48,424 nt of DNA from an uncultured Verrucomicrobiota bacterium (GTDB lineage Bacteria > Verrucomicrobiota > Kiritimatiellia > RFP12 > UBA3636), in NCBI GenBank assembly GCA_949295265.1, contig CASFKR010000002.1, positions 1 to 48,424 on the forward strand, read 5' to 3'. Positions within the stretch are counted from its first letter, which is position 1, and the number at the start of each line of letters is the position of its first letter. Made by a program: the position numbers and the translations under genes. Positions 730 through 36,950 of this stretch are shown piece by piece. The notes beneath the pieces were generated by a model. It had not been told where the DNA came from, ran no database searches, and was given only the letters and a program-made list of their open reading frames with translations.

Positions 730-3291
730 CTACGGAAGGCGGCGGCAGACGCGGAAACCGATGTAGATGTAGCCGGCATAGACTGGCGAATTAAACTCAC
801 GGTCACATGCGCGCGGACTGCCGTAGTAGCCGAAACTTCCGCCCCGTATCGAGCGGAAATTCATGCGGTCCGACGGCGGCGGACGCTTGTCCACGGGGTC
901 AAGCCCGCCCGCAAGCCTTTCGTAGTGATAATTGTCTTCGCACCACTCGGCAACATTCCCGCCCAAATCGTACACGCCGTCGCGCGACACGTCGCGCCCG
1001 TCCGAGCCGCGCAGGTTCACGCATTTGCGCAGGCCCCGCGCGAGCGGCTCGTCACCCCACGGATAGAGGCGGTTCTCGCCGCGCCCGGATGCGACATACT
1101 CCCACTCGGCCTCCGTCGGCAGGCGATAGCCGTCCGCCGCGAGATTGCACGCCCAGCCGTTTTCCTCGTCGTAGGCGGGGGTCAGCCCCTCTTTCCGGGA
1201 AAGCCAGTTGCAGTAGGCGCGCGCGTCCCGCCAGGAAACGTAGATAACCGGATCATCGTCGCGCCACGACGTGGCCGAGCGCATCTCACGATGTTCGGGA
1301 CGGAATTCCTCGTACTCGCGATTCGTCACCTCGTATTTTCCGATGGCAAACGGAGAAACGGTCACCGGACGCGCCGGACCTTCGTCCCGCTCCTTCGCCC
1401 GGGCACCCATCGTGAACGTACCGCCGGGGATTTCGACCAGTTCCGGAACCGGCGGGACGACCGTGCCGTCCCATTTCGCGACCTCGTTGCGGACCAGCGC
1501 GACGGCCTTGAGATCCGCGCCGCCCCAGTCCGACCAATCGTAGACGTACGGCACCTGCACCCGCCTGCCGTCCTTCGTCACCCACTTCCGCTCGGCGCCC
1601 GTCATGCGGTCGCAGACGATGCGGACCTTCGTCGCGCCCTCGGGAATCGACCAGAGGAACGCCATTTCGCGCACCTCTCCACCCGTCGGCGGCAGGTAGA
1701 GCGGCAGGATGTGCGCATGACTCTTCTCCGCCAGCCACGGCAAATCCACATGCAGCGAATAGCGCGCCTCCTCATCGGACGCATTGACGTACTTTACGCG
1801 GAACGAATAGCTGCCGGACGCAAAATCCGGCGGCAGCGTCCATTCCGTGCCCTGCGTCGCGTCCCATGTCAGCACGGGCTCGCCCGCAACGGCGCACTGC
1901 GTCCACATGCGCTGCGTACCGTTGTAGCCGAGCGCCAGCGAGTTCCGTTCGGTCTCCTGCGCGGCAATCTGCCGCCGGCCGGAGGTCTCCACCACCGTCT
2001 TCCCGTCGCGACGGATGGCGAAGCGCGGCGTCGCGCCGGGAACCATCGGCGCGGCGAGCGACTGAAATCCGGCCGGAACGTGCGCGGAAACGGTCTTCTC
2101 GCGGCCGTCCGGACCGGCTTGGGCGATTTCCAGTTCGGCCGGAGCCGTCAGCAGCGCGCTCATGTAGACGTTGTCCTCCACATCGTCATGCACCTGGAGG
2201 AACGTATCCCGGAAATCCTGCCACGGCGTCTCCGTTTCGGGACGGAAAACGCGCGTGAGACGCTTCGGGCGCGGTCGGTATGCGGCGTAAAGCTTGTCCT
2301 GCCGGATTTCCGGGTAGCGGCCCCGGCTCTTGTAGGCGGCGGCGAAGTACGCCGTGAGGTCGAGGAAGGCCTCGTCGCGGCATGCCCAGACGCGGTTCTC
2401 CAGATCGTGCGGCAGCGAACCGCCCGTCCAGCCGCTGAGGTAGATTCCCGAATCCTCGCCGTTGTCGTTCCACGTCACGATTTCGACGAGTTCCGGCTGC
2501 ATCGCGACGATATTCCGCCAGATTTCCGCATACCCGGAAACGCCGCGGTAGTCGCGCAGATTCGAGCTGTTGTATGCGGGGCAGGGTCCGGCCATGTAGA
2601 TTTTGCCGTTCTTCATTGCGGCCAGACGCCCCGCCGCCATCCGGTCGATGAACTCCGGCACCGTGTTGTCGCAGCCGAAGAAGAATATGCCGTCGCAGAC
2701 GAAATCGGGATCGCGGAAGATATCGTTTTCCACGAGGTCGAACGTCTCGTACATCGTGTGGTTCGAAACGCCGTAAGCGGGCACAATCAGGTAGTCCCCG
2801 ACGCCGCGCTTTTCGAGCTCGGCCTTGAAATCGACGTACTTGTTCGTCAGCCGGTTGCTGCCCGACCAGCCCGAGATGAACGGCCGCCCGCCGTAGCGGA
2901 ACAGGTTCGCCCGGTCATGGAACATCACGCCCATGTCGGGATGGTTGTTCCTGTGCAGCGCCTCCTTCGTGCCATCCGGCGAAAAGAACACCTTGAAGTC
3001 CGTCCCCAGCGATTCGGCCGCCGCGAAGATGTTCGAGCTCGCCTGCACATAGCCTTCGAACGACTTCCATTCGCCCGTCTCCGGATCTTTGCGTTTCCAG
3101 TTGCCGCAATTGAGCGCCCAGCCCTCCACACCGTAGAGCCGGGCAATCATCATCTCCTTGCGGTAGGATTCGACATCCTGGTAGAAGCACGTCATGTAGT
3201 GCGCAAACACCGTACGCGCCCCCTCGACTTCGCCCGCCGCCGCAACCGACGTGCAGCCGACCAGCGCCGCCATCACCCCCAAATTCTTCAT
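730..3291 (-). CDS. GH71-like lipoprotein with C-terminal FGE-sulfatase-like domain
   Basis: 853-residue protein, last gene of operon A, 40 bases after its paralogue. The N-terminus reaches LVGC at about residue 13, a plausible lipobox. Residues ~28-400 look like glycoside hydrolase family 71: an opening FAHYM, then GVEGWALNCGNW, and EIVTWNDNGEDS near residue 270. GH71 enzymes are known as alpha-1,3-glucanases. From about residue 618 to the end is a formylglycine-generating-enzyme (SUMF1) fold: EIPGGTFTMGA, YEVTNREYEEF, YRLPTEAEWEY, YDLGGNVAEW, IRGGSFGYYG and GFRVCRR. The first active-site cysteine expected after RGGS is absent (FGYYG), so this is probably a binding or structural domain. I chose the start at 3291 because GGGAG precedes it and an N-terminal export signal follows. 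The catalytic activity is inferred only. Confidence 0.8.
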   Translation of the reverse strand: MKNLGVMAALVGCTSVAAAGEVEGARTVFAHYMTCFYQDVESYRKEMMIARLYGVEGWALNCGNWKRKDPETGEWKSFEGYVQASSNIFAAAESLGTDFKVFFSPDGTKEALHRNNHPDMGVMFHDRANLFRYGGRPFISGWSGSNRLTNKYVDFKAELEKRGVGDYLIVPAYGVSNHTMYETFDLVENDIFRDPDFVCDGIFFFGCDNTVPEFIDRMAAGRLAAMKNGKIYMAGPCPAYNSSNLRDYRGVSGYAEIWRNIVAMQPELVEIVTWNDNGEDSGIYLSGWTGGSLPHDLENRVWACRDEAFLDLTAYFAAAYKSRGRYPEIRQDKLYAAYRPRPKRLTRVFRPETETPWQDFRDTFLQVHDDVEDNVYMSALLTAPAELEIAQAGPDGREKTVSAHVPAGFQSLAAPMVPGATPRFAIRRDGKTVVETSGRRQIAAQETERNSLALGYNGTQRMWTQCAVAGEPVLTWDATQGTEWTLPPDFASGSYSFRVKYVNASDEEARYSLHVDLPWLAEKSHAHILPLYLPPTGGEVREMAFLWSIPEGATKVRIVCDRMTGAERKWVTKDGRRVQVPYVYDWSDWGGADLKAVALVRNEVAKWDGTVVPPVPELVEIPGGTFTMGARAKERDEGPARPVTVSPFAIGKYEVTNREYEEFRPEHREMRSATSWRDDDPVIYVSWRDARAYCNWLSRKEGLTPAYDEENGWACNLAADGYRLPTEAEWEYVASGRGENRLYPWGDEPLARGLRKCVNLRGSDGRDVSRDGVYDLGGNVAEWCEDNYHYERLAGGLDPVDKRPPPSDRMNFRSIRGGSFGYYGSPRACDREFNSPVYAGYIYIGFRVCRRLP

Positions 3292-3331
3292 AACTCCGCT
3301 CCCTTTCTTTCCGGCCGATACCGCACGGCGC

Positions 3332-5578
3332 CTACTCCACCCGGCGGACATCGAACCGCCGGATTTCGGCGCCCTGCATGCCCCAGCTGTCGCGCGCATC
3401 GGCCGCAAGCCACAGCATCTCGCCCTGCGCGAGCGGCACGCCCGTTGCCAGCAGCCTCGCCTCCTCGCCGCCTTTGACGGTCTGCACCGCGCGCTCTTCC
3501 GTTCCGCGCTCGAACGAGAAGCGCATCTGCCCGTGCCCTTCGCCGCCCGCAACGACGGCCTCGAAATCGTACGTACCGGACTCCGGCGCCCGCCAGCCCA
3601 GCAGCATCAGGCATTCCTTCCGCGGCCCGAGCACAACCGTCCCGTTCGTCGAGACGCTGCAACCGCCGCCGTGGCCCCACGGATTCTTCTCGCCGGTACC
3701 GGCCTGACGCCGCTTCGCCGCGCCGCCCGCCCAGTCCATGACGGTGTAGCCGCCGTCGTGCGCGATGATGGGCGGCGGCCCGTATTTGTAGGCGGCATAC
3801 CAGCGCGCATGCCCCGTCGTGTCCTTGAACGGATTCGTCACGAACGGCGCATCCTTGAGATCCGTGAGCCGCCACGTGAAGCCGACGCCGTACCCAGCCT
3901 TGTCCGCGACGAGCGGATCCGTCCGGTCGCGATACTCCTCCAGGTTGGTGCGGCCATCCCCGTCGGGGTCGGCGGACGCATCGGCGCCCGTGGCCGTCGC
4001 GAGGAGCGGGAAGCGGCCGAAATACACCATTTCGAACCAGTTCGGCAGACCGTCCCCGTCGTCATCCGCATTCTCCGTATAAACGAAGGGCTCAACCTCC
4101 GGAAAGTCTCTCTTCCATTCGGCCGCATCGTTCGAGCCGTAAGCGGCGAGCGTCATGTCCTCGCGCCAGGCCTCGCGCGCGACCCGTTCGGGGCACGTCC
4201 AGTCCAGCACGGTTTCGCCGTCGCGGCGCAGAACAACCCGGATGGCGCCCTCCTGCAGCGGGAACTGGCGGAAGGAATAGCCGGCCGGCGCCTCGCAGGT
4301 CCCATAGCCTTCGACCTCCACCTGCGCGGGTGCCGTCAGGAACGTCGAAACCTCGAGCACCGTCGGCCGGTGCGCGCGCCGCGAGAGGAACGGATAGGCA
4401 TCCTCCGTCGAAAGCGCGCGGCGGAAGATGGCGTGCACTTCGTCCTGCGCGACCGTCGGCTCGCGCCCCGTTTTCCACGTTTCGGCGAAGTGGCGGTTGA
4501 CCCGTGCGACGGTGTAACCTGTGCCGTAGGCCGGAGCCATCGACGATTCCTCGCCGTAGTCGTTCCATGTCACGAACTGCAGCAGCCGCGAATCATTCGC
4601 CATCGCCGCCTGCCAGTTCGCCCGCAGCCGGTCCAGCCCGGCGCCCGTGATGATGCCGCCGAGTTTGTTCGAGTACTGGAAGAAAAGCGGCTGACTCCAC
4701 GAGCCGCCCGCCGCCTTCACGCCCGCGATGAGGTTCGTGTTGAAGCCCCAGGCGTTGTCCGTGGCGAGGAAGCCGCCGACCGCGTCGAACGTCTCGCCCG
4801 CCCAGCGGCCGATGGCGTCCATCTGCTCCGGCGTTGCATCGCGGATGTTCGCCATCGCGTCCAGTGAGCCGTGCAGAAAGACCGGGCACGGCAGCGCCGC
4901 CCGCCACGCCGCCCACGCCGCCGCGATGCGCACCCGCCACGCCTCGTGCGTCTCGCCCTCCTGCCGCTTCGGCACAATGTTCTCCGAGTAGTAGCCGAAG
5001 AAGAGAGGCTTGCCCGCGAAGCGCGCGAGATTGGGCGAATCCAGGTGGCGCAGCACAAATTGCGCGGATGCGACGTACTGGTCGAGCATCGTGCCGTCGT
5101 CCGGGCCGTGCGGATGGCAGCTCGCATCGAAGCAGATGGTCAGCCCGAAATCGACCTTCATTTCCTCGGCGGCCTGGAAGAAGACGTCCAGCTGACGCTT
5201 CGCGCCGTTCTGACCCGCCCAGGCGTCGAACGCGAATCCGTCGATGCCCGCGCGCATCGCCCGCGCAATCTCCATTTTGGCGTTGGCGAGCGCATTCGTC
5301 TCGAACCCCTGCGGCAAAAGCGGCCAGTTGACGATCCGGCCGCCCCCGGCGTCGTAGCCGTTTTGCCGGGCACGCTCCCAACGCGCCTCCGGCGTCATCG
5401 CCGCCTCGTTGCGGAATGAGTACGGCAGCGCCCCGTGCGCCGCCGGCCAGCATCCCATGAAGTGTGCGAAAACCTTCCGCTCGGGGGGCGGCGGGAGCGA
5501 AGCTCCCTGCCGGGGCCCCATGCACCCCGCGGCCGCGAGAAGTGCGCAGAAAAGCAACGGGAATCCGACTCGCTTCAT
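3332..5578 (-). CDS. GH71-like lipoprotein with TSP3-like calcium-binding segment
   Basis: 748 residues. The signal ends LLAAAGC, so it is a likely lipoprotein and client of the LspA coded at 37339. It opens FAHFMGCW and has GIDGFAFDAW and FVTWNDYGEES near residue 330, the pattern of GH71 (alpha-1,3-glucanase family in fungi). It is paralogous to the next gene downstream. Around residues 500-550 two acidic stretches, DDDGDGLPNWFE and DPDGDGRTNLEEY, resemble thrombospondin type 3 or dockerin-like calcium loops. A C-terminal beta-sandwich (about 570-748) may bind carbohydrate. AGGA lies about five bases before the ATG. The substrate is uncertain, because many bacterial GH71 relatives are uncharacterised. 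Confidence 0.8.
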   Translation of the reverse strand: MKRVGFPLLFCALLAAAGCMGPRQGASLPPPPERKVFAHFMGCWPAAHGALPYSFRNEAAMTPEARWERARQNGYDAGGGRIVNWPLLPQGFETNALANAKMEIARAMRAGIDGFAFDAWAGQNGAKRQLDVFFQAAEEMKVDFGLTICFDASCHPHGPDDGTMLDQYVASAQFVLRHLDSPNLARFAGKPLFFGYYSENIVPKRQEGETHEAWRVRIAAAWAAWRAALPCPVFLHGSLDAMANIRDATPEQMDAIGRWAGETFDAVGGFLATDNAWGFNTNLIAGVKAAGGSWSQPLFFQYSNKLGGIITGAGLDRLRANWQAAMANDSRLLQFVTWNDYGEESSMAPAYGTGYTVARVNRHFAETWKTGREPTVAQDEVHAIFRRALSTEDAYPFLSRRAHRPTVLEVSTFLTAPAQVEVEGYGTCEAPAGYSFRQFPLQEGAIRVVLRRDGETVLDWTCPERVAREAWREDMTLAAYGSNDAAEWKRDFPEVEPFVYTENADDDGDGLPNWFEMVYFGRFPLLATATGADASADPDGDGRTNLEEYRDRTDPLVADKAGYGVGFTWRLTDLKDAPFVTNPFKDTTGHARWYAAYKYGPPPIIAHDGGYTVMDWAGGAAKRRQAGTGEKNPWGHGGGCSVSTNGTVVLGPRKECLMLLGWRAPESGTYDFEAVVAGGEGHGQMRFSFERGTEERAVQTVKGGEEARLLATGVPLAQGEMLWLAADARDSWGMQGAEIRRFDVRRVE

Positions 5579-7239: not shown

Positions 7240-8808
7240 TCACCGCCCGGCTGCGCCGTCCGGGCCGGGTGCCGCCGCTTCAATCTCGCACCAGAGCCCC
7301 CGTGCGCCGCCCGCCTCTTCGCTGGCGAGGGAGACGGCGTTCATGCCGTCCTGCAGGGTACCCGCCGCGAACGGGACGCGCCAGCCGCACACCACCCCGG
7401 TCTCCGCCGGATTCCGCGCGAACCGTTTGAGGTTCTCCTCCCGCACCGGGGCGCCGCAGGGCGCCGCGCCGTTGAGCGTGAGCCGGGGCGGCAGCCGGTC
7501 GGCATCCAGCGCCACCACGACCGAGCAGGCGGCGCCCGCCGCCGTGCCCACGCGGATGCGCACCGTACCGCCCGAGGCGAGGGCAATCGGCAGCTGATGA
7601 CCGTCGTCCATGCCCTCCGGCACGCAGTCGTGGAATGCGGGGAGGTACCGCCGTGCGGCGGCGCGGACGGTTTCGGGCGTGCAGCCGCGCGTGTAGAGAG
7701 AGCGCTGCACGTCATCCGGGAGGTACGCCGTATTGAAGAAGTAGACGCCTTCGGCTCCGGCGGTGAAAGCGTTGTCCGCCCAGCCCGCGAGCGCCGGGCC
7801 GTCGATGGCCGAGACTTCGCCGGTGCAACTCACGTTGTCGCAGACGCAGGGCAGCACCGTTACGGCGGGGTTCGCCGCTTCGAGGCGCGCACGCCAGCCG
7901 GCAAAATCGAAATCGTAGTCCGCGCCCGCCCAGAAATTCGCGACGGCAATCATGTCCACAAGCCCCTCCCGCGCCCACGTCTCTGGGTCGTAGCCGAAAG
8001 CCAGCGCAGCTTCGTAACTGGAGGGCACCCGCGTCGACAGGAGAATTGCGTGCCCGCGCGCCTTCGCCTTCTCATTAGCGTAGTCGCGGCAGCGGCGGAT
8101 GAAGGCGGTGAGAATCGGCGCCTGTTCGCGTTCCCTGCCGGGCGTCAGATGCTCCCAGAAACGCATAAAATCCAACTCGAATCCGTCCGCGTCATAGCGG
8201 TCGACCAGTTCGCGGAAAATGCCGAAGGAGAAATCCTGCACCGCGGGCTTCGAATAGTCGAGCGCGTGGCGCGTCCAGTTGCCATCGGTGCCGGGTTCGC
8301 GGCGAAGCTCGGGGTGGTCATACCAGAATCGGTTCGTGCGGATGCTCCACTCGAGATTGACGTCGTGGACGTCGTTCATCCGCTGCGAGATCCACACGCT
8401 CACACCCTTCTTCCGGCCGTATTCGCACCAGACGCTGTAGCAGTCGAAGCCGGCGTCGTGCATCCGCTTCGCGTTCAGCGGCCATTCGTTCGGCTCAATG
8501 CCCCGTGCCTTTGCCTCATCGACGGCCATCCAGATGGGGTCGCAAGCCTTCGAATCGTAGGAGGCGCGTTGCCCGTTGGCGCACGCGAAGTAGTGCGTCA
8601 CCTTTCCGCCTTCTGTGATCGTATCGAGATACCGCCGCGCGCCGTCTGCGGAGGCGACGCGCTCCTCGACGGGCACGAACGTTTTCATGCAGCCCGCCTT
8701 GAAATAATGGTCATTGTCGCCGTTCACCACGAGGATGGGGCGTCCCCCCGCCTGTTCCCGGAACGGTTGCACGACAGGATCCGAACCGGGTTGAATTGTC
8801 TGCTTCAT
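7240..8808 (-). CDS. GHL10-like TIM-barrel hydrolase, first gene of operon A
   Basis: 522 residues. It resembles glycosyl-hydrolase-like family 10 / DUF187 barrel proteins: CMKTFVPVEERV, GFDCYSVWCEYGRKKGVSVWIS, then near residue 207 DADGFELDFMRFWEH, and later AGAEGVYFFNTAY. The acidic pair in GFELDF is the likely functional centre. There is no signal peptide, so it is predicted cytoplasmic, unlike the secreted genes that follow. The start at 8808 has no Shine-Dalgarno site. I chose it because the first eight residues (MKQTIQPG) and about 180 bases upstream are conserved with the GH92 gene at 27693, with synonymous changes in codons 2 and 4. The substrate is unknown. Confidence 0.65.
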   Translation of the reverse strand: MKQTIQPGSDPVVQPFREQAGGRPILVVNGDNDHYFKAGCMKTFVPVEERVASADGARRYLDTITEGGKVTHYFACANGQRASYDSKACDPIWMAVDEAKARGIEPNEWPLNAKRMHDAGFDCYSVWCEYGRKKGVSVWISQRMNDVHDVNLEWSIRTNRFWYDHPELRREPGTDGNWTRHALDYSKPAVQDFSFGIFRELVDRYDADGFELDFMRFWEHLTPGREREQAPILTAFIRRCRDYANEKAKARGHAILLSTRVPSSYEAALAFGYDPETWAREGLVDMIAVANFWAGADYDFDFAGWRARLEAANPAVTVLPCVCDNVSCTGEVSAIDGPALAGWADNAFTAGAEGVYFFNTAYLPDDVQRSLYTRGCTPETVRAAARRYLPAFHDCVPEGMDDGHQLPIALASGGTVRIRVGTAAGAACSVVVALDADRLPPRLTLNGAAPCGAPVREENLKRFARNPAETGVVCGWRVPFAAGTLQDGMNAVSLASEEAGGARGLWCEIEAAAPGPDGAAGR

Positions 8809-8871
8809 GACCGAAGGTCTGCTGATCGTGTGTATTTTTCTGTTTTGCTTTGCGGGGCATGGGCGCGGCCG

Positions 8872-8889
8872 CTTCGGGGGTCTCCGAAG
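8872..8889 (-). promoter_or_regulatory. Leader hairpin A
   Basis: CTTCGG pairs with CCGAAG around a six-base loop, about 12-29 bases after the predicted transcript start. The homologous hairpin before operon B keeps the fold with compensating changes. No T run follows directly, so it looks like a regulatory or stabilising leader element rather than a terminator. Confidence 0.55.
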
Positions 8890-8951
8890 GACGCCCCTTT
8901 CGAACCCAACATACCCCAACCCCTGCATGCTTGAAAAGAAAATTTTTCTCT

Positions 8952-8970
8952 ATTAATGCCCGATTGATGC
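8952..8970 (-). promoter_or_regulatory. Tandem half-site operator candidate A
   Basis: On the minus strand GCATCAAT and GCATTAAT repeat with an 11-base period, just upstream of the -35 region. Operon B has GCACTAAG and GCACTAAT at 27861-27843 with the same period and position. This is the geometry expected for a dimeric or two-domain activator binding one DNA face. Confidence 0.5.
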
Positions 8971-8979
8971 CGACCGCGG

Positions 8980-9004: not shown

Positions 9005-9171
9005 GAAGCCGCACGGAGGCGCGGCAGAACCGCCTGCAGCCGGAAAAAGACGCAGAGGCAAAACCGCGCGAGCGAGCCGCACGGAGCGAAACCAAAACAG
9101 GACGAACACGATGGACAGGACGTCCCGTTCTTGCGCCACGCCACTGCCACCGTGGCGGGAGGAGCGCCTGT

Positions 9172-25452: not shown

Positions 25453-27693
25453 TCAGTCCGCCGCGAAATCGACGGGCGCGTCCGTCATCTCAAAGACGAG
25501 CTCGCCGCCGCGCAGAAGCGCCTCGTGCGAAAGCGCACGGGCCATTACGCGCGAGCCGTTGAGCGTGACGCGCCGTACGTACTTCGCCGTTTCCGAAAGG
25601 CCCTCCGCGCGGATGCTCAGCGTCCTGCCGCCCGGCAGCGCGAGGCACATTTCCTCCGCCTGCGGCGCGCCGATCACATACCCGCCGTCGCACGGGTTGA
25701 ACGGATAGAACCCCATCATCGAGAAGAGGTACCACGCGCTCATCTGCCCGCAGTCGTCGTTGCCGCAGAGTCCGTCCGGAGCCGGAAGATAGCAGTCGCG
25801 GCAGATGTCCCGCACGAGTTCCGCCGTGCGGGACGGCCGCCCCAGAACGGCGGGGAAGTAGGCGATGTGGTGGCTCGGCTCGTTGCCGTGCCAGTACTGC
25901 CCGATCCACCCGTCCGTAAAGCGTCCGTCCCGTTCGGCGGAGGTCGGCTTCGCGCCCAGGCGCGGCGTCGCGAAAAATTCATCGAGCTTCGCGAGCGCTT
26001 TCTCGCGCCCGCCCATCGCCTCGGCGAGCCCGAAGGGGTCCTGCAGGACGAACCACGTGTAAATCCAGGCGTTCGCTTCGGTGTAGTCCGGCCAGAATTC
26101 GCCCGGTACGCGCCCCGCGCGCGGGTCGAACGGCTCGCGCCAGCCGCCGCCCGACGTCTTCGGCGCCCGGGCGCGCGCAAAACCGGTCTTTTCGTCGAAG
26201 ACGTTTTTCCAGTACCCTGCGTACTTCCGGGCTTCCGCCGCCGTCTTCGCGTTGCCGGTCTGCTCCGCAAAGTGCGCGATGCACCACCAGTCGTACGCGA
26301 ACTCCAGCGTGCGCGATACGCTTGCGCCCGGCTGGAGATGCCGGTCGAACACGCCGGGGAAGTACGGAAAGTAGCCGTTTTCCCAGTAGGCGTTCCAGCA
26401 GTTGACGGGGTTTTCGCCGTCGTTGCCGATCATCGACTGCACCATCAGGGTCAACGCCGAACTCGCATCGAAATGGCGCCACCCCTTCGCCCAGGCGTCG
26501 ACGAGGACCGGGATGGAGTGGATGCCGATCATGTCGTGCGTGTCGTCCGCCCACATCGCCCACATCGGGAGGTGGCCGTGGTGGCGGCCGAACGAGAGGA
26601 GGGAGTCGACAAATCCGCCGACGCGCTCCGGCGCAATCAGGGTGTAGAGCGGATGCGCCGCACGGAATGTGTCCCACAGCGAGAGCGTCGAGTAGTGCCC
26701 CCGCTGCGCCGTCGCAATGCAGTCGTCCGCCGTGCGGTAGCGGCCGTCCACGTCCGTCTGCACGTTCGGCTGGATGCAGAGGTGGTAGAGTGCCGTGTAC
26801 CAGCTTGTCTTCTGCCCGTCCGTCCCCTTCACGAGCCGCGCACGGGACAGGAGGCTGTTCCATGCGGCGCGGTTCGCCGCACGCACGGACTCGAACGTCG
26901 CGCCGCGCGTCTCGGCCTCGCGGTTCTGCCGTGCGCCGTCCTCGGAGACGGTCGAGAGGGCGACCTGCACGGTTACGGGGCCGTCGCCGTCGAATTCGAC
27001 GACAAACCGGTCACCCGCCCCGTCGAAGGCGTCGGACGCGAGGCGCCGGATGTCCGCCCACGGGCGGTCGAACACGATGTCATAGAACAGCCGGTAGAGC
27101 GTCCAGCCCCGCGCACGCTTGCCGCCCGCAATTCCGGTCCGGTCGGCCGCAAGCGTACAGGACGATTCGGGTACGCGCAGCCCGAGTTTCAGGTCCCACG
27201 GCCGCATCAGCATCGCCGCGGCATCCACGTAGAGCCGCTTCGGCGCGCCCGCCGGCCAGGTGAACCGCCACCAGGCGACGCGCGGCGATGTGGTCGCTTC
27301 GGCGCGGATGCCACCGTTCTCCAGCGTGACGGCGTAGCCGTCGGGTGCGCAGACCTGCGTCTCCTTCCGGAACGGCGAAGCCAGCGCCGTCTCATCGAAC
27401 GCACCGGTGAACGGCATCAGCAGAATGTCGCCCATCGCCGGACACCCCGTGCCGTTCAAGTGCGTCTGCGAAAAGCCCCGGATTGTCGTGTCCGTATGCT
27501 TGTACCCCGAACAGGTGACGCTCTCGCCCGTGTCAGGACTGGCTTGCACGAGACCGAACGGATAGCACGAGCCGGGGAACGTGTTACCCTCGCCGACGGA
27601 ACCGATGAGCGGATCAATCCAGCGGACGAGGTCTTCCGCCGTCTCCATTGTGTGCGCGCCCGCATCCGGACCGGGTTGAATCGTCTGTTTCAT
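25453..27693 (-). CDS. GH92 exo-alpha-mannosidase, first gene of operon B
   Basis: 746 residues, close to family length. Signatures are WIDPLIGSVGEGNTFPG, YPFGLVQASPD, GFSQTHLNGTGC followed by MGDILL, YWHGNEPSHHIAY near residue 604 and GNDDCGQMSAWY near 646. GH92 enzymes are calcium-dependent inverting alpha-mannosidases acting on N-glycans or mannan. Relatives are usually exported, but no signal peptide is present here. The start at 27693 rests on conservation of MKQTIQPG and the leader with the gene at 8808. METAEDL at codon 16 is the alternative. With the GH38 gene nearby, alpha-mannosides are a likely target. Confidence 0.9.
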   Translation of the reverse strand: MKQTIQPGPDAGAHTMETAEDLVRWIDPLIGSVGEGNTFPGSCYPFGLVQASPDTGESVTCSGYKHTDTTIRGFSQTHLNGTGCPAMGDILLMPFTGAFDETALASPFRKETQVCAPDGYAVTLENGGIRAEATTSPRVAWWRFTWPAGAPKRLYVDAAAMLMRPWDLKLGLRVPESSCTLAADRTGIAGGKRARGWTLYRLFYDIVFDRPWADIRRLASDAFDGAGDRFVVEFDGDGPVTVQVALSTVSEDGARQNREAETRGATFESVRAANRAAWNSLLSRARLVKGTDGQKTSWYTALYHLCIQPNVQTDVDGRYRTADDCIATAQRGHYSTLSLWDTFRAAHPLYTLIAPERVGGFVDSLLSFGRHHGHLPMWAMWADDTHDMIGIHSIPVLVDAWAKGWRHFDASSALTLMVQSMIGNDGENPVNCWNAYWENGYFPYFPGVFDRHLQPGASVSRTLEFAYDWWCIAHFAEQTGNAKTAAEARKYAGYWKNVFDEKTGFARARAPKTSGGGWREPFDPRAGRVPGEFWPDYTEANAWIYTWFVLQDPFGLAEAMGGREKALAKLDEFFATPRLGAKPTSAERDGRFTDGWIGQYWHGNEPSHHIAYFPAVLGRPSRTAELVRDICRDCYLPAPDGLCGNDDCGQMSAWYLFSMMGFYPFNPCDGGYVIGAPQAEEMCLALPGGRTLSIRAEGLSETAKYVRRVTLNGSRVMARALSHEALLRGGELVFEMTDAPVDFAAD

Positions 27694-27753
27694 GGTCGTC
27701 ACGCTGCTGATGGTGCTTTTTTTTTCTGTTTTTCGGGGCGCACAAAAGCACCC

Positions 27754-27773
27754 GTTTCAGGGGCCTCCGAAAC
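27754..27773 (-). promoter_or_regulatory. Leader hairpin B
   Basis: On the minus strand GTTTCGG pairs with CTGAAAC around a six-base loop. One G-U pair forms only in the minus-strand RNA. Compared with hairpin A, one C-G pair is replaced by T-A and one G-C pair by G-U, so the fold is kept while the sequence changes. Confidence 0.55.
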
Positions 27774-27842
27774 CGCCGGACACACCCTTCGCAACCAACA
27801 TAACCAAACCCCTGCACAAATAGCAAGTTTTTTTTTTACTAC

Positions 27843-27861
27843 ATTAGTGCTTACTTAGTGC
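27843..27861 (-). promoter_or_regulatory. Tandem half-site operator candidate B
   Basis: GCACTAAG and GCACTAAT on the minus strand, with an 11-base period, 17 bases upstream of the -35 box. They match the pair before operon A in spacing and position. Confidence 0.5.
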
Positions 27862-27934
27862 CGTCCGAAAATTTCCCGTTTCAGAACAGAAAAAAGCCCC
27901 TTCGTGGACCTCCATTTACCGATTCCGTGCGGCT

Positions 27935-28095
27935 GAGCCAGCGCAACACTCCCAGTAGCCCCACTCCCAGTGGACTCAGTAGCCCCAGCAAAAGGCACAA
28001 CCGTGCCCCCCCCAGTGGACTCAGTAGCCCCAGTAGTCCCAGTAGACCCAGTGGCCCCATCCTGCGGTGAGACGTCACGTTGCGCCGCAGGGCGT
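27935..28095. repeat. Minisatellite and palindrome block, copy 1
   Basis: From about 27949 to 28060 the sequence is built of 9-base units of the type CCCAGTAGC and CCCAGTGGA. They are interrupted by GGCACAACCGTGCC at 27994-28007 and followed by a 31-base imperfect palindrome at 28061-28091. The same block recurs at 36779-36950. In one minus frame the units read Gly-Ala-Thr and Gly-Ser-Thr triplets, but no start or context supports a gene. Confidence 0.75.
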
Positions 28096-31901: not shown

Positions 31902-32330
31902 GCCGCCGCCGCAGCAGCAGCGCCGCAGTAGAGAAAGAGACAGCGCAGCGAGCCGTAGACACGACGAACACGACGAACACGACGAACACGACAAACAGGA
32001 CGGCTCGTTGCTGCACCCCGCCATTTCTGCCTGCGCAGAGCCGCCGCAGCAGCGCAGCGTCGCCACCATTATGACCCTGAAGGGGTCGAACGGTCTTCCA
32101 AAGGATGAGCGAAAGGAGTCCTGGTGCACGGATATGTGGAAAAGCCCTCCGGGCAGGAGTAAATCACCACACGGACTTTCCATGTACCCCGGAAAAGTCC
32201 AACCCTCGCGCGACTTCGCTCTGTGCTTCTGCGTCTCTGCGGGAAACAAAAACCCCTTTCGCGCGACTTCGCTCTGTGCCTCTGCGTCTCTGCGGGAAAC
32301 AAAATCCCCCCGGATGCCGCATCGGACCGC
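31902..32330. other. Repeat-filled intergenic region after the GH38 gene
   Basis: No gene. Around 31955-32000 a 9-base ACGACGAAC unit is repeated. 32051-32116 matches the dispersed GAAGGGGTCGAA repeat family. 32207-32304 holds two 45-base direct copies of a CGCAGAG-type repeat. Confidence 0.6.
32207..32304. repeat. Two direct copies of a 45-base CGCAGAG-type repeat
   Basis: 32207-32251 and 32260-32304 are nearly identical, starting CGCGCGACTTCGCTCTGTGC and ending in GGGAAACAAAA. The reverse strand reads as runs of CGCAGAGACGCAGAGGCACAG. Repeats of this style occur between genes in many environmental genomes. Their function is unknown. Confidence 0.8.
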
Positions 32331-35466: not shown

Positions 35467-36609
35467 ATGTCGACTTCGAAAAAAACATCCGGCAAGGCGA
35501 AATCTGCCGTTGCCCGCACTGCTTCCAAGGCGTCCAAAAAAGACGCCAAGCCGGTTATTACCTTGAAGATTTCTCTAGCCGGATTGCAATATAAGAAAGC
35601 CGACGACATCCGAGCCCGTAAATCCCTTTCTGCCTCTGGATCATCGATGCCCACCAAGACGACTTCTTCCACGACTGAAAAAGCCGTGAAAAAACCGACC
35701 TCTTCCGCCAAACCCGAAACCAAGAACGCAAAACCTGCAGATCCCAAGAAGCCGGAGCCCAAACCTGCGAAGAAGGCGGAACCCAAATCCGCCCCCAAAG
35801 CGGTGAAAAAGCCGGAACCCAAGGCCGCGAAAAAACCCGAGGCAAAGGCTGCTCCCAAGAAGGTCGAGCCCAAGGCTGCGAAGAAGCCCGAGGCAAAACC
35901 CGAGCCCAAGAAAGCAGAGCCCAAGGCCGCGAAGAAGCCCGAGGCAAAACCCGAGCCCAAGAAAGCAGAGCCCAAGGCCGCGAAGAAGCCCGAGGCAAAG
36001 CCCGAACCCAAGAAGGCTGAGCCCAAGGCCGCGAAGAAGCCCGAAGAAAAGCCCGAGCCCAAGAAGGCAGAACCCAAGGCCGCGAAGAAGCCCGAAGCAA
36101 AGCCCGAGCCCAAAAAGGTCGAGCCCAAGGCTGAACCCAAGAAGGTCGAGACCAAGAAGGCTGAGCTTCCGCCGCCTCAGGATTCCTGGGATGAACCGGA
36201 TGTGCTGCCGGATGAAGACCCCCTGACTCCCGAAGAGATTGCCACGTACCGCCGCAAGCTCGAAGGCATGATTGGGCATCACATCGAAAAGGCGCAGTCC
36301 CTGCAGAATCAGTCGCTCACCCGCAACGACAAGGAAAATCCGGATGAGACCGGTACGGATGACAATACCCGTATCACGGAACTGACCAAGGCCGGCATGA
36401 GCGAGGAAACCATCCGCAACATCGAAGAAGCCATCCGCGCCATCGATGCCGGCACATATGGCATCTGCAAGTCCTGTCAGCGGCAGATTCCGCGCGGACG
36501 CCTCGATGCCAAACCGGAAGCCCTGTATTGCGTCTCCTGCCGCACGGAAATCGAAGAAGCCCGCAAGATGCGGGAAGTGGCAAACCGTTCCTCCGGTTAC
36601 GGTCGCTGA
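35467..36609 (+). CDS. Histone-H1-like repeat tail fused to a DksA/TraR zinc finger
   Basis: 380 residues. Residues 1-118 are Lys, Ser, Ala and Pro rich. Residues 119-220 are six near-perfect 17-residue repeats of the type KAAKKPEAKPEPKKAEP (35821-36126, 51 bases each). An acidic linker follows, then a DksA/TraR-type domain: IEEAIRAIDAGTYGICKSC and a C-x2-C-x17-C-x2-C zinc finger ending YCVSC. DksA relatives bind RNA polymerase, and lysine/proline tails resemble bacterial histone-H1-like DNA-binding tails. The DxxDxA tip of true DksA is not evident. GAGGAGG lies at good distance from the ATG, and a strong promoter precedes it. The role is inferred to be nucleoid or transcription related. Confidence 0.8.
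   Translation: MSTSKKTSGKAKSAVARTASKASKKDAKPVITLKISLAGLQYKKADDIRARKSLSASGSSMPTKTTSSTTEKAVKKPTSSAKPETKNAKPADPKKPEPKPAKKAEPKSAPKAVKKPEPKAAKKPEAKAAPKKVEPKAAKKPEAKPEPKKAEPKAAKKPEAKPEPKKAEPKAAKKPEAKPEPKKAEPKAAKKPEEKPEPKKAEPKAAKKPEAKPEPKKVEPKAEPKKVETKKAELPPPQDSWDEPDVLPDEDPLTPEEIATYRRKLEGMIGHHIEKAQSLQNQSLTRNDKENPDETGTDDNTRITELTKAGMSEETIRNIEEAIRAIDAGTYGICKSCQRQIPRGRLDAKPEALYCVSCRTEIEEARKMREVANRSSGYGR
35821..36126 (+). repeat. Six in-frame 51-bp tandem repeats
   Basis: Units start at 35821, 35872, 35923, 35974, 36025 and 36076. They encode 17-residue Lys/Pro/Ala/Glu repeats, with the second to fourth almost identical in DNA. Slippage could change copy number without shifting the frame. Confidence 0.9.
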
Positions 36610-36778: not shown

Positions 36779-36950
36779 AAGCCAGCGCAGATCTCCCAGT
36801 GGCCCCAGTAGCCCCAGTGGCCCCAGTAGCCCCAGTGGCCCCAGTAGCCCCAGTGGCCCCAGCAAAAGGCACAACCGTGCCCCCCCCAGTGGCCCCACTC
36901 CTAAAGACCCCATCCTGCGATGAGGCGTCACGTTACGCCGCAGGGAGTGC
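36779..36950. repeat. Minisatellite and palindrome block, copy 2
   Basis: From 36793 to about 36912 nine-base units alternate as CCCAGTGGC and CCCAGTAGC, a purer array than copy 1. GGCACAACCGTGCC lies at 36868-36881 and the 31-base imperfect palindrome at 36914-36944, in the same order as at 27935-28095. Confidence 0.8.

Follow-up and report, generated by a model that had tools for sequence, protein, structure and literature searches.

A small promoter–leader family before glycosidase and secreted-protein genes in an uncultured Verrucomicrobiota bacterium

In the 48,424-nt stretch of DNA analysed here (the window), from an uncultured Verrucomicrobiota bacterium, a segment comprising a putative promoter, a leader and first codons stands before two glycosidase genes, and a third full copy and a partial one are found elsewhere in the genome. 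Judged from the sequences, this promoter–leader family is real, selected, small and lineage-specific, with three full members (A, B and C) and one partial member (D). The reading that we favour, with a probability of roughly two in three, is that A, B and C are paralogous promoter–leader–start segments of one small regulon, duplicated in the lineage and kept by selection.

Alignment of the two segments of the window placed copy A at 27671–27867, before the GH92 alpha-mannosidase gene (25453–27693), and copy B at 8786–8976, before the gene at 7240–8808; the alignment spans from upstream half-sites to about codon 10. Both copies contain, in this order, the half-sites GGCACTAAgtaaGCACTAA / GGCATCAAtcggGCATTAA, an A/T-rich tract, TATGTT, a hairpin, an A-rich tract and the first codons ATG AAR CAG ACR ATT CAA CCC GGT (MKQTIQPG), and the first 10 residues of the two proteins are identical at 9 positions. 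Since the local alignment score of A and B (54.5–65.5) was far above that of the rest of the window (at most 17) and genome-wide BLAST of B against A gave E = 2.8e-17, a chance likeness is excluded. A preliminary description of this DNA had reported the two copies, with the same order and spacing, at these places; this was borne out, both copies lying on the minus strand, and the likeness proved somewhat stronger than described.

All features of the two copies are on the minus strand. In copy A the half-site pair GGCACTAA-GTA-AGCACTAA (27844–27862), a direct repeat with an 11-bp period, is a putative activator site. It is followed by a putative -35 element, TTGCTA (27821–27826), read directly from the sequence 18 nt before the -10, by the invariant core TGCAGGGGTTTGGTTATGTTGG (27795–27816), which includes the putative -10 TATGTT (27797–27802), by the leader hairpin GTTTCGGAGGCCCCTGAAAC (27754–27773), and by the start codon and first ten codons (MKQTIQPGPD, 27664–27693) common to copy B. 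The corresponding elements of copy B are the half-site pair GGCATCAA-TCG-GGCATTAA (8953–8971), a weak -35, TTTTCA (8932–8937), the invariant core TGCAGGGGTTGGGGTATGTTGG (8906–8927) with a putative -10 TATGTT (8908–8913), the leader hairpin CTTCGGAGACCCCCGAAG (8872–8889), and the start codon and first ten codons (MKQTIQPGSD, 8779–8808). Terminator-like hairpins, identified by consensus match only, lie between the upstream operon and copy B (9008–9084, minus strand) and are consistent with copy B starting its own transcription unit.

The whole genome (2.82 Mb, 91.5% complete) was searched for further members. BLAST revealed a third full copy, C, on another contig (C30:34236-34430), with E values of 1.8e-9 against A and 2.8e-4 against B. 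It precedes the gene of a 1297-residue secreted protein that begins MKQTTRNGW, contains NHL and FlgD-Ig domains and is unrelated to the products of the A and B genes. A sequence model built from these three copies recovered them at E values of 1e-42 to 1e-48 and found nothing else in the genome below E 0.4. The 2.82 Mb contain the 22-bp core TGCAGGGGTTNGGNTATGTTGG at exactly three places, against a chance expectation of 4e-6; relatives of the core with one to three mismatches were absent from the genome, and reversed-pattern controls gave no match. In the three full copies the distance from the half-sites to the -10 is 41, 39 and 40 nt and that from the core to the ATG, taken from the coordinates, is 101, 97 and 101 nt.

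When the half-site pair was searched alone, A, B and C were recovered without mismatches, together with a single one-mismatch site (C29:10127-10145). This fourth promoter, D, precedes in the same orientation an ORF for a secreted Gly_rich_2 protein and reads TTGCTT-N18-TATGCT at the same 40-nt distance from the half-sites; it shares the half-site pair, -35, -10 and spacing only, and is devoid of core and leader. By chance about 0.5 matches to the half-site pair are expected, and the probability of TATGYT at such a spacing is 5e-4. The same putative operator sequence lies 39–41 nt from a putative -10 at four sites, before several genes. Read by eye, the promoters of A to D are TTGCTA, TTTTCA, TTGCCA and TTGCTT, respectively, followed by N18 and TATGYT, so that TTGC is found in A, C and D and TTTTCA in B; the -35 of B is poor. 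Sigma70 promoters have hexamers close to TTGACA and TATAAT at 16–18 nt, and a consensus scanner called none at A or B, where its threshold was not reached.

A link between the genes behind C and D was provided by a relative, genome G008, in which an ortholog of the copy-C gene (53–57% identity by segment) directly follows a Gly_rich_2 gene, the match of the latter to the promoter-D gene resting on domain family and a short alignment. Genes of one operon there would therefore share the half-site promoter here, and this adjacency is, at the level of gene order, an independent functional link for the promoter set. The G008 ortholog sits inside its operon and no leader was found at it. In the same locus (L113, G008:C36, 86-3510), a regulator with GntR and HTH_23 domains is encoded divergently to the Gly_rich_2 and NHL/FlgD-Ig operon and is a candidate local regulator of that gene set; only weak, partial homologs of it were found in the genome studied here.

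Several repeats were observed as well. Two kinds of intergenic tandem array with a 9-bp unit (CCCCAGTAG-type and ACACGACGA-type) are located in the window at 28010–28059, 31959–32002 and 36795–36862, and also in L018 (4508-4542) and L062; copies A and C have such arrays upstream of them, the fourth promoter has them nearby, and others lie elsewhere. A CAAAAGGCACAACCGTGCCCCCCCAGTGG-like stretch is found both upstream of copy A and on contig C17, and together with the arrays looks like a dispersed repeat family. The window also contains a near-perfect (96% match) 53-bp tandem repeat in two copies (32206–32309) and, on the plus strand, a gene (35467–36609) for a DksA/TraR zinc-finger protein that has a long repeat region rich in Lys, Pro and Ala, inside which a 51-bp tandem repeat is present in 6.2 copies (35818–36131).

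Conservation was assessed in the three-copy alignment, where 101 of 199 columns (51%) are invariant. Among windows of 22 columns the core ranks first, with 20 invariant (P = 0.003 by shuffling of columns). One 6-bp stem, formed by columns 96–101 with 108–113, pairs in all three copies and is the sole 6-bp stem doing so; its changes comprise a two-sided compensatory one (T-A/C-G) and three one-sided, G-U-compatible ones, and any such 6-bp stem arose in 1.25% of column shuffles. This hairpin includes G-U pairs, which in DNA would interrupt a palindrome and so favour a role as RNA. Pair counts did not beat shuffles of the 3' letters (176/500), three sequences being too few for support. The core P value and the single stem with consistent changes (P about 0.01) agree with the earlier proposal that the unit is more conserved than drift would leave it. 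Shine-Dalgarno pairing is absent at the three starts (-0.5 to -0.9 kcal/mol, versus -3.2 to -11.9 for genes inside operons); as a special trait this was dropped, six plus-strand candidate first-gene starts being also devoid of a Shine-Dalgarno sequence.

Neither full copies nor promoters were found in 18 other genomes of the family or 161 other genomes of the order, a set without a second species of the genus. Model matches in these relatives at E 0.01–10 fell in coding or unrelated sequence where inspected and look like chance, and 3-mismatch core matches in two of them (G010 and G012) were rejected, their surroundings being unrelated. In GTDB r220 the core had a single exact match, an isolated one in Chryseobacterium, and plasmid records held no copy. 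As far as can be tested, then, the signature is confined to this genome. The preliminary description had envisaged a regulon of leader-tagged hydrolase cassettes across the whole genome; model and pattern searches, which yielded three full copies and one partial, led us to reject it. Such a regulon is unsupported because there are four promoters in total, two of the four genes encode non-hydrolases (NHL/FlgD-Ig and Gly_rich_2) and relatives have none. The expectation of more than two copies in the genome was correct, given C and D. The four sites point to a small lineage-specific control circuit, not to a genome-wide one. Nothing relevant was found in the literature on promoters of the PVC group or on leaders common to several genes.

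The product of the gene behind copy B was identified as a GH156 exosialidase (phmmer E 3.7e-58 to 6RZD), in place of the GHL10-like barrel first suggested, a label for which the Pfam score was 18.9 bits, below the cut-off of 27.9. It matches EnvSia156 (PMC6254351, PMC6811678) over residues 26–420, and catalytic and carboxylate-binding residues are kept, with conservation at 5 of 5 positions matching the key residues of that enzyme, the catalytic Asp14 and His134 plus Arg129, Arg202 and Asn346 (PMC6811678). Unlike EnvSia156, the copy-B enzyme has a leader-encoded N-terminal extension of about 20 residues and no signal peptide. The GH92 protein, which matches TIGR01180 and solved alpha-mannosidases, also carries a ~20-residue N-terminal extension that replaces a signal peptide. 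GH156 relatives in G008 and G014 have a signal-peptide-like N-terminus.

Beyond the tag, no likeness was found among the genes downstream of A, B and C. The same cluster encodes a sialate-O-acetylesterase-type protein, GH71 and an FGE-sulfatase domain, and because GH92, GH156 and the sialate-O-acetylesterase share this cluster the two enzyme operons appear to be functionally related. The earlier statement that the enzymes are unrelated thus stands for their sequences but not for their function. Both operons probably serve the use of host N-glycans or sialoglycans. In the window, two adjoining GH71-domain proteins, one fused to an FGE-sulfatase domain, are encoded at 730–5578 on the minus strand.

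In the regulon that we favour, a putative regulator would bind two 7-bp direct half-sites (GCAYTAA, 11-bp period, as defined from four sequences), centred roughly 60 bp upstream of the presumed transcription start, and would help RNA polymerase, presumably as an activator, at a sigma70-like TTGCNN-N18-TATGYT promoter via the A/T-rich tract. In the three full copies a second layer may be provided by the conserved spacer/core TGCAGGGGTTNGGN and a ~100-nt leader with a short 5' hairpin; this layer would probably protect the mRNA or control its translation, the start codon behind it lacking a Shine-Dalgarno sequence. Leader and first codons would have been copied along with the promoter before unrelated genes (GH92, GH156 and the NHL/FlgD-Ig secreted protein), and the substrate of the regulon is probably sialylated, mannose-containing host-type glycans. 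Activator sites of the OmpR/PhoB type are direct repeats with a period of ~11 bp. The two 7-bp half-sites described here, which have a 4-bp gap and precede a putative weak sigma70 promoter, agree with them in the direct repeat and its 11-bp period; their sequence is another one and they lie about 40 nt before the -10, not overlapping the -35. An mRNA stabiliser such as the 5' UTR of E. coli ompA is likewise a leader of about 100 nt that carries a hairpin close to its 5' end and, ahead of the start codon, an A-rich stretch free of structure; the leader described here differs in being common to unrelated genes and in being conserved into the first codons.

It is unlikely that the likeness is a relic of gene-start duplication or gene conversion, with little present function beyond that of an ordinary promoter and with leader and codons retained by descent and not by selection. 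Copies found in this genome only, a likeness that extends into codons 1–10, as in a copied segment, and MKQT codons without evident role would all suit such an origin, which however leaves unexplained that conservation is concentrated in the core while about half of the rest is variable, that the leaderless promoter D keeps half-sites and spacing, and that the stem was kept through sequence changes. Quite unlikely, too, is that the leader acts on the operons after initiation as a cis-regulatory RNA of its own (attenuator, riboswitch-like or protein-bound), to which the core would partly belong. The covarying hairpin and the fixed distance of 97–101 nt to the start argue for it, as does a possible second helix between complementary conserved blocks, in which core UGUUGG pairs with UCAGCA/CCAGCA near the start codon, as seen for A and C in both the MFE and the centroid fold. 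This long-range helix, however, hardly varies, and on its 5' side it overlaps with the putative -10, which would be untranscribed. Moreover, the folding energies of the single sequences were like those of shuffles (z -0.1 to -0.8), an Rfam search with copy A returned no family, only a 10.7-bit chance match to HOTTIP_3 on the other strand, and the hairpin in A precedes just a short T-run, none being flagged in B.

Highly improbable is a reading in which the core ATG (TATGTTGG) starts a leader peptide M-L-x-x-K..., with AGGGG as ribosome-binding site and a promoter further upstream. In each of the four promoters the frame opened by this ATG does begin M-L-x-x-K, with codons that differ synonymously (TTG/CTG, AAG/AAA), and in B and D it runs in frame into the main ORF; but it stops after 14 codons in A and 27 in C, no common peptide continues past five residues, D is without any AGGGG, and TTGC is placed as a -35 would be, 18 nt upstream.

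Promoter, leader and first codons travel together before unrelated genes. It is conceivable, though unlikely, that operator, promoter, structured leader and N-terminal MKQT tag form a portable module for expression, pasted before unrelated genes in one bacterial lineage, where it would replace their own starts and give signal-peptide-free, cytoplasmic GH92 and GH156 enzymes and a leader-RNA control step; if true, that step would be one not described for polysaccharide loci. In the favoured reading, that of one small regulon kept by selection, a single testable promoter signature connects two genes for secreted proteins elsewhere in the genome with a mannosidase operon and with that of a rare inverting sialidase, and provides a handle on how host-glycan use is coordinated in an uncultured glycan-degrading bacterium.
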